A stretch of DNA of 64,000 bases, taken from the NCBI GenBank assembly GCA_947479915.1, contig CANKAU010000002.1, forward strand, positions 1-64,000, in the 5' to 3' direction. The notes beneath the pieces were generated by a model, which had not been told where the DNA came from, did not search any database, and worked only from the letters and a program-made list of their open reading frames with translations. The stretch is from Chloroflexota bacterium. Its GTDB lineage: Bacteria > Chloroflexota > Dehalococcoidia > UBA2979. The position numbers were made by a program, and so were the translations under genes. Positions 10,335 through 14,750 of the stretch are shown piece by piece (within the stretch, counting starts at the first letter, position 1; each line of letters starts with the position of its first letter).

Positions 10335-10473
10335 CGGTGGAGGCGAGGCGGGGGAGCGGACAACACCCCGGATCGGATAGCGTACGGGGCGGCGCGGTTG
10401 CGCCTCCCGCGGGCGGACGACACGCTGACGCCTCGCCACGTCGACCCAGCGCCGAAGAAGGGTGCACAGCCTC

Positions 10474-11694
10474 GTGAACTCGAACCGAGTCATGATTGTC
10501 CTGATGTGCGTGCTCGCATCGCCGGGTATCGTCCTGCGGCTGTCGGGCACGCACCTGGGCACCGTCCCGGACACCGCTCTCTTCGGCCTCTCGATCATCG
10601 CCTCGGCGTTCCTGCTGAGCTGGGCGGCCGAGGCCGCCGAGATGGAAATCACGCAGGGCTTGGCCGTCGCGTTCGTGGCACTGATTGCCGTCCTGCCCGA
10701 GTACGCCGTGGACATGACGTTCGCGTGGAAGGCCGGGCAGGACCCGGTGTTCGCGCAGTACGCCGTGGCCAACATGACCGGCGGCAACCGGCTGCTCATC
10801 GGCGCGGCGTGGCCAATGCTGGTGTTCATCCTCTGGGCGCGGACCGGTGCGAAGGCGCTGGTGCTGGAGCGCAGCTACGCGATCGAAGTTGTGTCCCTCG
10901 CCGCGGTGGCGATCTACTGCCTGCACATCCCGTTCAAGGGGAGCATCCAGCTGTACGACGCCGTCGTGCTGACTGCGGCCTTCATCGTCTACATGTGGCT
11001 GGTCGCACGCGTCCCGTCCGAGGAGCCTGAGCTCGTCGGCCCCGCACGGCTCATTGGCGCGCTCCCGCGCACGCAGCGGCGGGTCACGCTGTTCGGCATG
11101 TTCGTGTACGCGGCGCTCGCGATCCTCGCCTCGGCCGAGCCGTTCGCGGAGGGCTTGATCCACAGCGGCACGCAACTCGGCATCGATGAGTTCGTGCTGG
11201 TGCAGTGGCTCGCCCCGCTGGCGTCCGAGTCACCGGAGTTCCTCGTCGCGGGCATCCTCGCCTACCGCGGCCGTGCGGGCGTGGGCATGGGCGCACTGCT
11301 GTCCTCGAAGGTGAACCAGTGGACGTTGCTCATCGGCGGCCTGCCGATCGTGTACGCGATCTCCTCCGGCGGCTTCGGCGGCCTGCACCTGGACGCTCGG
11401 CAGACCGAGGAGGTGCTCCTCACGGCGGCGCAGACGATGTTCGCCGTCGCGGTCGTCCTCAGCCTGTCGCTGAGCCTAATGGAAGCGGGAGCGCTCCTCG
11501 CGCTGTTCTCGCTGACGTTCTTCCTGCCGAGCACGGAGGTGCGCCTGTTCCTCTCCGGCGTGTATCTCGTGCTCGCCGCGGGAATCGTGGTCTGGCAACG
11601 GTCAGAGATCCCCGCGATCCTCCGCAGCTTCAAGGCCACGTTGAACAACACACCGGAAGCCGACGCCGTGCAACCGTCCGAGGGCCATCACTAG
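10474..11694 (+). CDS. Sodium/calcium exchanger (CaCA) family membrane protein
   Basis: A 406-residue membrane protein with about 10-11 hydrophobic segments and two alpha-repeat-like motifs: 'AVLPEYAVDMTFAWKAG...NMTGGNRLLIG' in the first half and 'APLASESPEFLVAGILAYRGRAGVGMGALLSSKVNQWTLLIG' in the second. Their inverted arrangement and acidic residues are typical of cation/Ca2+ exchangers. The ion is not certain. Possible starts are GTG 10462, GTG 10474 and ATG 10492; AGAAGGG lies upstream, and I prefer 10474 on spacing. The C-terminus is a soluble tail ending in GHH. Confidence 0.85.
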   Translation: MNSNRVMIVLMCVLASPGIVLRLSGTHLGTVPDTALFGLSIIASAFLLSWAAEAAEMEITQGLAVAFVALIAVLPEYAVDMTFAWKAGQDPVFAQYAVANMTGGNRLLIGAAWPMLVFILWARTGAKALVLERSYAIEVVSLAAVAIYCLHIPFKGSIQLYDAVVLTAAFIVYMWLVARVPSEEPELVGPARLIGALPRTQRRVTLFGMFVYAALAILASAEPFAEGLIHSGTQLGIDEFVLVQWLAPLASESPEFLVAGILAYRGRAGVGMGALLSSKVNQWTLLIGGLPIVYAISSGGFGGLHLDARQTEEVLLTAAQTMFAVAVVLSLSLSLMEAGALLALFSLTFFLPSTEVRLFLSGVYLVLAAGIVVWQRSEIPAILRSFKATLNNTPEADAVQPSEGHH

Positions 11695-11775: not shown

Positions 11776-12210
11776 CTACTCGCGGACGACGAGTACCGGG
11801 CACGGCGCGTTCCGGATCACGTGATCCGTGACGCTGCCGAGGACCGCACCCACGACGCTGGCCGCGCGGCGGCTGCTGATCACGATCATCGTCGCGCCGC
11901 GCGCTGCGGCCTCGCGCTCGATGACCTCGGCGTCGTCCTCGCCCCGTCCGGCGATCGCCACCACGCACTCCACGCGACCGGCGGGGAGCGAGGTCGCCGA
12001 GGCTTCCGCCTCGAGCGCCGCCTGCGTGCGTGCGGACACGGTGACCATCGCCGCCTCGGTCGAGGGCGCGAGGACGTCCGCCGCGTCGAGGAGCGGGTTC
12101 AGCACCTGCAGCAAGACCACGGACGCGCCGGTCTCCCGCGCGATCGAGGTCGCCTCACGCAATGCGGCGCGCGCGCCCTCGGAGCCATCGAACGCTACCA
12201 GCAGTCGCAT
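11776..12210 (-). CDS. Universal stress protein (UspA family)
   Basis: A 144-residue Usp domain: 'MRLLVAFDGSEGARAALREATSIARETGASVVLLQVLNP' at the N-terminus and 'ATMIVISSRRAASVVGAVLGSVTDHVIRNAPCPVLVVRE' at the C-terminus. The ATP-binding motif G-2x-G-9x-G(S/T) is incomplete: the first glycines are replaced (SSRRAAS), while GSVTDHV is kept. It may therefore belong to the non-ATP-binding subgroup. The GGGAGGATCCG site directly before ATG 12210 fixes the start, so the longer track ORF is not used. The family acts in stress survival in the cytoplasm. Confidence 0.9.
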   Translation of the reverse strand: MRLLVAFDGSEGARAALREATSIARETGASVVLLQVLNPLLDAADVLAPSTEAAMVTVSARTQAALEAEASATSLPAGRVECVVAIAGRGEDDAEVIEREAAARGATMIVISSRRAASVVGAVLGSVTDHVIRNAPCPVLVVRE

Positions 12211-12439
12211 CGGATCCTCCCTGCAGCGTGCCCATCGTAGCGGAGTGCCGGGGCGAGGCCGAGTGACGCGGCTGTCAGGCAGTCCGTGCGAGCGTGGACG
12301 CCTCGCCCGAACGTTGAGAGATGCGGGGAACACCGACCAGAATCGGGCGATTACGCCAATGCAATGCAAATGCGGAATCGCTAGGATGAGGCTGTCATCA
12401 GGGCGATGCGGCTGATTCGCCGCGATCCGGAGGCCTTCG

Positions 12440-12541
12440 GTGGAAGTCGTCGCGGCGGTCATTCTCACGACCCTCTTCGCGGCCGCGCTGGCGGTGATCT
12501 TCGGCGTCACCGCGATGCGGAACAACCAGCGCCTGCACTAG
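12440..12541 (+). CDS. 33-residue single-pass membrane peptide
   Basis: GTG-initiated ORF too short for the track: 'MEVVAAVILTTLFAAALAVIFGVTAMRNNQRLH' (33 residues). One hydrophobic helix is followed by a basic end. GGAGG lies 7 nt before the GTG, an excellent ribosome binding site, and a TAGGAT hexamer is about 60 nt upstream. It lies 64 nt upstream of the radical SAM gene on the same strand. No family was recognised. It could be a small membrane protein with a role tied to the next gene, or independent. Confidence 0.6.
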   Translation: MEVVAAVILTTLFAAALAVIFGVTAMRNNQRLH

Positions 12542-12605
12542 CGCGCGACCCCGGCGGGGATGCGGCAGCGGTACGATCGAGGTCAACGATCGTGCCGGAG
12601 GCGCC

Positions 12606-14141
12606 GTGCTCAAACCGCTGACCCTCAACCTCGGCCCGCTCCCCGGACGCCTCTCCGTGCCCGCGACCGCGACGGACGGTGCGCGGGTGCTGCTGGTCTC
12701 CACGTACGAGTTGGGGCACCAGCCGATCGGTCTCGCTGCACCCGCCGCCGCGCTCCGCGCCGCGGGGCACGAGGTGCGCACGCTGGATCTCGCCGTCGAC
12801 ACCGCGACGCCGGGCGTACTGCGGGACGTGAATCTCGTTGCGATCTCGATTCCCATGCACACGGCCGCGCGCATCGGCCTGGAGTTCGCCCGCGCCGTCC
12901 GCCGCGCCGTCCCCGGCGTCACGATCGCCTGTTACGGCATGTACGCCTCGCCACTGCACGCGGAGCTGACGGGCCCCGACCGCGCCGACCTCGTCATCGG
13001 CGGGGAGTACGAGGGCGGCCTGCTGGCGCTCGCTGATCGTGTCGCCGGGCGCACGCCGAACGGTGTCGTCCCGGGCGCGGGAGCGTCGCCGCTACTCATC
13101 CGCCAGCAGTACCCCGTCCCCGACCGCCGCGGCCTGCCCGTTCTCGATCGGTACGCGAAGGTGCGCCGCGCCGACGGTGAGCACCCGGCGGGCTACGTGG
13201 AGGCGACGCGCGGCTGCGCCCACGCGTGTACCCATTGCCCGATCACGCCGGTCTACGGCGGCGCGCTCCGCATCGTCCAGCGCGACACCGTCCTCGGTGA
13301 CATCGCCCAGCAGGTGCACGCGGGAGCGCGGCACATCACGTTCGGCGACCCGGACTTCCTCAACGCCGTCCCGCACGCCATCACGCTGGTGGAGGCGCTG
13401 CACGAGCGCTGGCCGGAGGTCACCTACGACGCGACGATCAAGGTGGAGCACCTGATCGAGCACGCCGCCCTGCTGCCGCGCCTGCGCGAGACGGGCTGCA
13501 TCTTCGTGACCTCGGCGTTCGAGTCATGCAACGACACCATCCTCGCGACGCTGGCGAAGGGGCATACGCGCGCGGACATGGTGCGCGCGCTCGCCGCGGC
13601 GCGGGCCGCCGGGCTGCCCGTGCGTCCGACGTGGGTCGCGTTCACCCCGTGGACCTCGATGGACGACGTGATCGCGATGCTCGACTTCATCGCCGAGCAC
13701 GGACTTGAACGCCATGTCCAGCCGGTGCAGTTCGGGCTCCGCCTGCTGCTACCGCCCGGCTCACCGCTGGTCGCGCGCCTCCAGTCCGAGCGGCGCCTGG
13801 GCCCGTTCGACCGGGAAGGGCTGACGTACACCTGGCGCGCCGAGGATCCTCGTGTGGACGCCCTGCAGGCGGAGCTGGGCGCGCTGGTAGAGGCTGCAGC
13901 CGACCCGGCGGGCGCCGCGGGCTGCGACTGCGGCGACGACGCCTGCGCGGCGGCCTCGCAGGTCGAGGATGCCGCGATCACCTTCGCCCACGTGCGGGAG
14001 GCGGCCTATGCCGCCGCCGGACGCGTCCGCCCCGACGCCGTGCCCGTCCTCGACGGGCCGCTGGTGCCGGGCCTGACGGAGTCGTGGTTCTGCTGTGCGG
14101 AGCCCACCGCCCAGCAGCTGGTCACGTTCAACCTCGGCTGA
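12606..14141 (+). CDS. CCAEP-tail radical SAM protein with B12-binding-like N-terminal domain
   Basis: A 511-residue radical SAM protein. The N-terminal 150 residues look like a cobalamin-binding Rossmann domain ('RVLLVSTYELGHQPIGLAAPAAALRAAGHEVRTLDLAV', 'GGEYEGG'). The [4Fe-4S] motif is 'RGCAHACTHCP' with Cys204, Cys208 and Cys211. A small Cys cluster 'CDCGDDAC' follows the barrel. The C-terminus is 'ESWFCCAEPTAQQLVTFNLG', placing it in the CUAEP/CCAEP-tail group known to me, where some members carry selenocysteine in the tail. Substrate and product are unknown. GGAGG 5 nt before the GTG fixes the start; TACGAT is at 12572. Confidence 0.88.
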   Translation: MLKPLTLNLGPLPGRLSVPATATDGARVLLVSTYELGHQPIGLAAPAAALRAAGHEVRTLDLAVDTATPGVLRDVNLVAISIPMHTAARIGLEFARAVRRAVPGVTIACYGMYASPLHAELTGPDRADLVIGGEYEGGLLALADRVAGRTPNGVVPGAGASPLLIRQQYPVPDRRGLPVLDRYAKVRRADGEHPAGYVEATRGCAHACTHCPITPVYGGALRIVQRDTVLGDIAQQVHAGARHITFGDPDFLNAVPHAITLVEALHERWPEVTYDATIKVEHLIEHAALLPRLRETGCIFVTSAFESCNDTILATLAKGHTRADMVRALAAARAAGLPVRPTWVAFTPWTSMDDVIAMLDFIAEHGLERHVQPVQFGLRLLLPPGSPLVARLQSERRLGPFDREGLTYTWRAEDPRVDALQAELGALVEAAADPAGAAGCDCGDDACAAASQVEDAAITFAHVREAAYAAAGRVRPDAVPVLDGPLVPGLTESWFCCAEPTAQQLVTFNLG

Positions 14142-14246
14142 ACGCTGGACGGCGACGGCGCGGGATTGTAGCGTCGGGCTCGGCTACCCTGTGTCACGCT
14201 TGGTGCTGCCATGAGGCGCGCCCGCACACCGTTCGCGGAGGAGAGC

Positions 14247-14750
14247 ATGCAGATGTTGACGATCCGGCGCGCGGCCCTGCTCGGGCTCCTCGTGCTTGGT
14301 GTGAGCGTATTCGCGGGTTGCACCGTGAACGGCGAGGCGGCCCGCCACCGCCGCGACGAAGCGCAGATGTCCATGGCCATGGAGCACGGCTTCAAGCCCG
14401 GCGAGGCTGCCCCTGCGAAGGCGGCTCCGGCCGGCGGCGCGGCGGCCGCGAACGACCCCGCGAAGCTCGGTCAGACGGTCGCGACGGCGAACGGCTGCGC
14501 GGCGTGCCACTCGATCGACGGCAAGGCCGGCGTCGGCCCGACGTGGAAGGGTCTGTTCGACTCCAACCGCGAGCTCGCCAGCGGCGGCCCGGTGAAGGCG
14601 GACGAGGCCTACCTCAAGGAGTCGATCGCCAACCCGAACGCGAAGATCGCGAAGGGCTTCGGCCCGAACGTGATGCCCGCGACCTTCGGCTCCACCCTGA
14701 AGCCGGAGCAGATCGACCAGATCGTCGCCTACATCAAGTCGCTGAAGTAA
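14247..14750 (+). CDS. Lipoprotein c-type cytochrome
   Basis: A 167-residue lipoprotein cytochrome. It has a signal sequence with lipobox 'VFAGC', a flexible Ala/Pro linker 'AAPAKAAPAGGAAAAN', then a monohaem class I cytochrome c domain: haem motif 'CAACH', 'GVGPTWKGLF', and the axial Met in 'NVMPATFG', ending 'IVAYIKSLK'. It resembles the cytochrome c domains fused to or associated with caa3-type cytochrome oxidase, and would carry electrons on the outer face of the membrane. No oxidase genes are in the window. GGAGGAG precedes ATG 14247, so the longer ORF start is rejected. Confidence 0.9.
   Translation: MQMLTIRRAALLGLLVLGVSVFAGCTVNGEAARHRRDEAQMSMAMEHGFKPGEAAPAKAAPAGGAAAANDPAKLGQTVATANGCAACHSIDGKAGVGPTWKGLFDSNRELASGGPVKADEAYLKESIANPNAKIAKGFGPNVMPATFGSTLKPEQIDQIVAYIKSLK

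Follow-up and report, generated by a model that had tools for sequence, protein, structure and literature searches.

The closest described relative of the protein analysed here is ArsL, of arsinothricin biosynthesis. Its gene cluster and the transfer of an ACP group to As(III) have been reported (PMC8552651), and enzyme work on this transfer is attributed to Yao et al. 2024 in a paper that cites it (PMC12159101). ArsL has a two-domain fold, a CxxxCxxC motif and a C-terminal Cys-Cys pair, and all three are shared by a 511-residue radical SAM protein encoded in the window analysed here (the whole stretch of 64,000 nucleotides). Profile searches leave little doubt about the family of this protein. 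The NCBIfam model NF040546 matches the protein with 571.2 bits, against a curated cut-off of 500, over positions 1-466 of its 468, and the protein is thus near certainly a Cys-form member of the named, uncharacterised CUAEP/CCAEP family, as an earlier note on this DNA had proposed. That note also regarded the function as undescribed. This stands for the function, of which the literature that we searched gives no account (our searches for CUAEP, CCAEP and RCCLKC found no paper, and substrate and product are unreported, as the note had said), but not for the family, which NCBI had already named.

The family is widespread. Orthologues in the same genus are 76-85% identical, relatives occur in 99 of the 400 genomes surveyed from the phylum, and a second set comprises at least 558 confirmed CUAEP loci, one of the two search patterns behind this set having contained the tail motif itself. 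The best 80 of these loci belong to MAGs and genomes whose labels include Chloroflexi, Acidobacteria, Nitrospirae, Poribacteria and Nitrospinae. Cultured carriers include Thermomicrobium roseum and Ktedonobacter racemifer, and the phage collection that we searched gave no match. Relative to the rest of the family, the source protein is the Cys form and carries a non-conserved loop, CDCGDDAC; its gene lies beside an antiporter gene, away from the neighbourhood of ligase and NfuA-like genes, and in part of the source genus a small ORF stands upstream of it (Table 1).

Table 1. Features of the locus within the window, with residue numbers referring to the 511-residue protein.
Feature	Position	Strand	Basis
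Na+/Ca2+-exchanger-type antiporter	10462..11694	+	PF01699
Universal stress protein; start codon not fixed within the stretch	11776..12300	-	Usp 9.1e-26 (Pfam)
Shine-Dalgarno GGAGG of the small ORF	12429..12433	+	sequence
Gene of 33-residue single-span membrane peptide, GTG start, 33 codons	12440..12541	+	present in 4/6 genus genomes
Shine-Dalgarno GGAGG of the radical SAM gene	12597..12601	+	sequence
CUAEP/CCAEP-tail radical SAM protein, Cys form, 511 aa, GTG start	12606..14141	+	NF040546
N-terminal B12-binding-like (Rossmann) domain, residues 29-142	12690..13031	+	PF02310 and fold matches
Radical SAM core, residues 199-344	13200..13637	+	PF04055, E 7e-12
CxxxCxxC, residues 204/208/211	13215..13238	+	invariant in aligned members and ArsL
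CDCGDDAC, residues 440-447, non-conserved	13923..13946	+	Cys in 5-6/75 members; weakly predicted loop
Tail WFCCAEP, residues 494-500, with C497 at the Cys/Sec position	14085..14105	+	invariance and alignment
c-type cytochrome, signal-like/lipoprotein-like N-terminus	14211..14750	+	Cytochrom_C 4.8e-13 (Pfam)

After NF040546, the family that best matches the protein is ArsL itself (NF040542, 277.9 bits), far ahead of the third at 59 bits and below the ArsL cut-off of 450 bits. The reciprocal search agrees: two ArsL proteins reach 364 and 336 bits against NF040546, and 78 and 57 against the next best model. The two profiles align over 404 columns with 30% identity and an E-value of 1.7e-87, about 40 of the nearly invariant CUAEP positions carry the same residue in each of the six ArsL sequences aligned, and the CC of the ArsL tail RCCLKC falls on the CC or CU of the CUAEP tail. 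Judged from these comparisons, the CUAEP/CCAEP family is almost certainly a sister of ArsL and not ArsL itself. The two differ in the tail, where only the CC pair is common and the C-C-A-E-P of the CUAEP proteins comes with a longer linker. They also differ at a set of positions (MHT for LFD at 84-86, R89, H210, P212, P249, E281, H320 and 381-383) that may line the active site or the substrate pocket, so the CUAEP reaction may differ from that of ArsL.

The architecture of the protein is otherwise as the earlier note had read it. The B12-like N-terminal domain matches PF02310 with 35.7 bits (cut-off 32.1) and the core matches PF04055 with 46.3 bits (cut-off 29.5); by family and by the predicted fold, the former is B12-binding-like. 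The three Cys of CxxxCxxC, which the note had placed at 204-211, are invariant across the aligned members and are the predicted ligands of the SAM-binding [4Fe-4S] cluster. An AlphaFold model (pLDDT 92, pTM 0.91, with lower confidence in the tail than in the core) has AprD4, OxsB, TsrM and MgmA as its closest solved folds in the PDB. AprD4 has the same B12-type fold and is not known to use cobalamin. These folds, the B12-binding domain and the active-site differences from ArsL would all suit an enzyme of another kind, either a radical SAM methylase that depends on cobalamin or one that, like AprD4, generates a 5'-deoxyadenosyl radical; ArsL would then be a cousin with changed chemistry. We regard this as improbable. 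The four structures resemble our protein in overall fold, with TM-scores of 0.5-0.63 when normalised by query length, but they share only 14-19% identity with it, have another tail and score far lower at the level of families, all methylase families standing far below ArsL (the best at 59 bits); moreover, we know of no methylase family with a Cys pair in its tail, which also speaks against this reading.

The most conserved part of the family is its end. The tail W-[FY]-C-[C/U]-A-E-P is nearly invariant across phyla, and C496, C497, A498, E499 and P500 are, with the three cluster Cys, invariant in all 75 near-full-length members aligned. The earlier note had seen WFCCAEP 11 residues from the C-terminus, where it indeed lies, and orthologues hold on to it: the tail is present at 78 of the best 80 loci of the second set, the exceptions being one truncated contig and one protein ending in WFC-TGA-SEP. 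This last homologue, from a Rokubacteria MAG (L229), has these codons at the end of its ORF, and may have either a modified tail, CUSEP, or a sequence naturally cut short at the TGA. The extra Cys cluster CDCGDDAC fared otherwise, as it falls in a variable loop predicted at low confidence, with Cys in only five to six of the 75 members, and was dropped as a second cluster site. The five invariant Cys of the family are thus the three of CxxxCxxC and the pair in the tail.

The second residue of this pair is exchanged freely between two chalcogens. Of 136 distinct relatives, 75 have Sec at position 497, encoded by an in-frame TGA, and the remaining 61 have Cys, which bears out the earlier remark that CC stands where relatives carry Cys-Sec. 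We counted 21 changes between the two on the tree of the 136, and well-supported branches force at least 14 of these. Because only S or Se is tolerated at this position, the chalcogen itself probably does the work there. In the source gene the codon is TGT, not TGA. Matches to tRNA-Sec (71.9 bits) and, above the cut-off, to SelB are present in the genome, SelB counts being loose since the model also matches other translation GTPases. Loss of Sec decoding as the cause of Cys at 497 is unsupported in this genome.

What the pair does may be read in several ways. The earlier idea that it binds a second metal, or has a part in catalysis, gains strength from the sister enzyme ArsL, which acts on As(III) and also ends in Cys-Cys; a tail that clamps a metalloid or another soft acceptor is accordingly a possible role, to which we give somewhat less than an even chance. 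Mammalian thioredoxin reductase has a C-terminal Cys-Sec redox pair, and the CUAEP tail could likewise be a shuttle that passes electrons to the substrate or to a cluster intermediate and holds no acceptor. The vicinal Cys-Sec near the C-terminus past a variable linker, the lower confidence of the tail in the model, and an interchange of Sec and Cys that suits redox catalysis as well as ligation would all fit. Yet the invariant AEP after the pair and E492 and W494 before it point to a fixed docking site rather than a mobile arm, and ArsL, whose RCCLKC contains this pair too, acts on As(III), so that we consider a redox shuttle unlikely. Alternatively, the tail might ligate an auxiliary Fe-S cluster, or tune the first one, in an enzyme given to sulfur insertion or other auxiliary-cluster chemistry, as in LipA and MiaB. 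The frequent presence of NfuA-like and IscA-like carriers and of YggX next to CUAEP genes would be expected of such an enzyme. There is also a precedent: Dph2 belongs to a radical SAM enzyme that forms ACP, and its tandem Cys are candidate Fe-S ligands (PMC11048331). Against this, the two invariant Cys left outside CxxxCxxC are few for a cluster and those of the variable loop are no help; an auxiliary cluster thus seems to us a rather poor bet. For the clamp that we prefer, the neighbourhoods of the genes say something about the acceptor.

ArsL loci contain ars genes, whereas CUAEP loci lack typical genes of ars operons. Homologues of ArsR, ArsQ and ArsN1 were absent near about 157 CUAEP loci, those of aquaporin and ArsI were likewise absent near CUAEP genes, and matches to ArsM, ArsC and ArsB were few and either weak or sporadic, those to ArsM being weak matches of class I methyltransferases. 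Arsenic is therefore disfavoured as the usual substrate, and the neighbourhoods lend no support to an arsenic operon. One neighbour is nevertheless common to both families, an ATP-grasp ligase, found at five of the six ArsL plasmid loci examined. The one beside ArsL in Alicyclobacillus has ATP-grasp_4 and LAL_C2 domains, the latter just below the cut-off. Plasmids of Pantoea, Klebsiella and Alicyclobacillus that encode ArsL have arsM clustered with genes for the ATP-grasp ligase, for an MFS transporter and for a GTP-binding protein, an arrangement that suggests a peptide-linked arsinothricin as the product. Our literature search joining arsinothricin and ATP-grasp found no paper, and no relative of ArsL was confirmed in viral contigs.

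Within the CUAEP family, the same type of ligase is the most frequent partner. Among 101 distinct, well-flanked loci (3 kb on both sides), an ATP-grasp gene occurs at 56, NfuA-like or IscA-like genes at 33 and YggX at 24, in shuffled order and orientation, and about 45% of these loci have no adjacent ligase. The partner ligase combines ATP-grasp_4 and LAL_C2 (Pfam), as the L-amino-acid ligases BacD and DdaF do; its domain architecture resembles theirs, but it scores far below the cut-offs of both, and its place is outside the window. The two genes are also inherited together: among 44 genomes of the taxonomic family, 27 have both, three only the radical SAM gene, one only the ligase and 13 neither (Fisher p 1.4e-7). 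As these genomes are related and incomplete, the count by genus (13/0/0/4 in the same order, p 4e-4) is the safer figure. We consider it likely that the radical SAM enzyme and the ATP-grasp ligase act in one pathway. The earlier note had named neither ArsL nor these partners.

Two further genes recur in the same 101 loci. At 17 of them there is a protein that we take, from its sequence, to be DUF169; a DUF169-like protein with several Cys was seen at 1599-2316 from the radical SAM start in one locus (L200) and at 22 others. A gene resembling methionyl-tRNA formyltransferase, divergent or downstream, occurs at 18 (including L111, L112, L115-L117, L120, L121, L124, L149 and L150), hinting at an N-formylated product or intermediate.

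In the source genus the enzyme gene has been relocated from these partners. It lies in this clade behind the antiporter gene (the antiporter is upstream and on the same strand in all 15 loci with this cluster), and the ligase is elsewhere, with RecQ, an IscA-like gene and usually an NfuA-like gene. The c-type cytochrome follows the radical SAM gene in the source genus and at several related loci, including in genomes without the 33-residue ORF. Searches for the ligase and the NfuA-like gene in the source genome gave no match. There, the end of one contig (C43) carries RecQ and the IscA-like gene in the expected order and stops 46 nt past the IscA-like stop codon; in a congener (G661) the ligase starts about 160 nt past that stop. 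The absence of the ligase is best read as an assembly gap, and its loss from the genome is unsupported, as the contig ends where the ligase should begin. The end of this contig is GC-rich just past the IscA-like gene, and the contigs of several relatives also end near this locus, which may be hard to assemble. Another genome (G695) has two CUAEP-family genes, L074 and L075, both of the Cys form, one in the antiporter context and one between an NfuA-like gene and an ATP-grasp ligase. The source clade may thus be a relocated or duplicated lineage, or the pair may result from mixing in the MAG.

The earlier note had also drawn attention to a 33-codon ORF for a membrane peptide (MEVVAAVILTTLFAAALAVIFGVTAMRNNQRLH), with its own GGAGG, just upstream of the radical SAM gene. 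The ORF is there as described. As 111 ORFs of at least 25 residues overlap 9 kb here, one of this length is expected by chance, and only its conservation makes it real. In the four genus genomes that carry it, dN is 0.03-0.10 and dS 0.29-0.74 (dN/dS about 0.1), with most changes at third codon positions, and it always precedes the radical SAM gene, even in G661, where the genes further upstream differ. This pattern of substitution marks it as a genuine genus-level gene under protein-coding selection. Its pairing with the enzyme did not extend further: it is present in four of the six genus genomes, which are four of the 44 family genomes, and was found neither in the other two nor in any other family genome. 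The ORF is thus kept upstream of orthologues inside one genus only. By the refuting condition that the earlier note had set, the peptide does not belong to the enzyme's system. That it adjoins the radical SAM gene and has a ribosome site of its own, that it persists there in G661 and that its coding sequence is under selection might all be expected of a RiPP-like substrate, or of an obligate membrane partner of the enzyme. We find this very improbable, as the peptide is missing in two genomes of the same genus and in all other family genomes that carry the enzyme, and it is a single hydrophobic span that contains neither Cys nor anything resembling a core region. A family partner or RiPP precursor was rejected, since a precursor would be expected beside the maturase across the family, where this ORF is not kept. 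The peptide has no match in NCBIfam and only a sub-threshold one in Pfam (DUF4190); it would be an unrelated or accessory small membrane protein of the genus.

Overall, we propose that the protein is an ArsL-like enzyme transferring ACP to a soft acceptor held by the tail, to give a non-protein amino acid that is then conjugated by the ligase; as a whole, this proposal falls a little short of an even chance, and for the ACP-type chemistry taken on its own the chances are about even. In such a reaction, the ACP group of SAM would pass to a metalloid, a chalcogen or a similar atom, which need not be arsenic, bound at the conserved pair of Cys-Cys or Cys-Sec near the C-terminus. This would give an amino acid with a new group, to which the co-inherited ATP-grasp ligase would join a second amino acid, while the NfuA-like, IscA-like and YggX proteins would service the Fe-S cluster. 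A broader version, in which the CUAEP/CCAEP enzyme acts with the ligase and the NfuA-like protein in a widespread and often Se-dependent pathway of Chloroflexota, Acidobacteriota, Nitrospirota and others, turning the chemistry of ArsL to a new element or acceptor held in the clamp and capping the ACP product as a dipeptide, strikes us as conceivable but on the unlikely side.

The source gene is thus an ordinary member of a named family, and this family spans many phyla with a function unreported in the literature that we searched. Its sisterhood with ArsL and its co-inheritance with the ligase turn "function unknown" into a specific test, namely whether the enzyme forms methylthioadenosine and an ACP adduct, and whether the ligase uses the latter.
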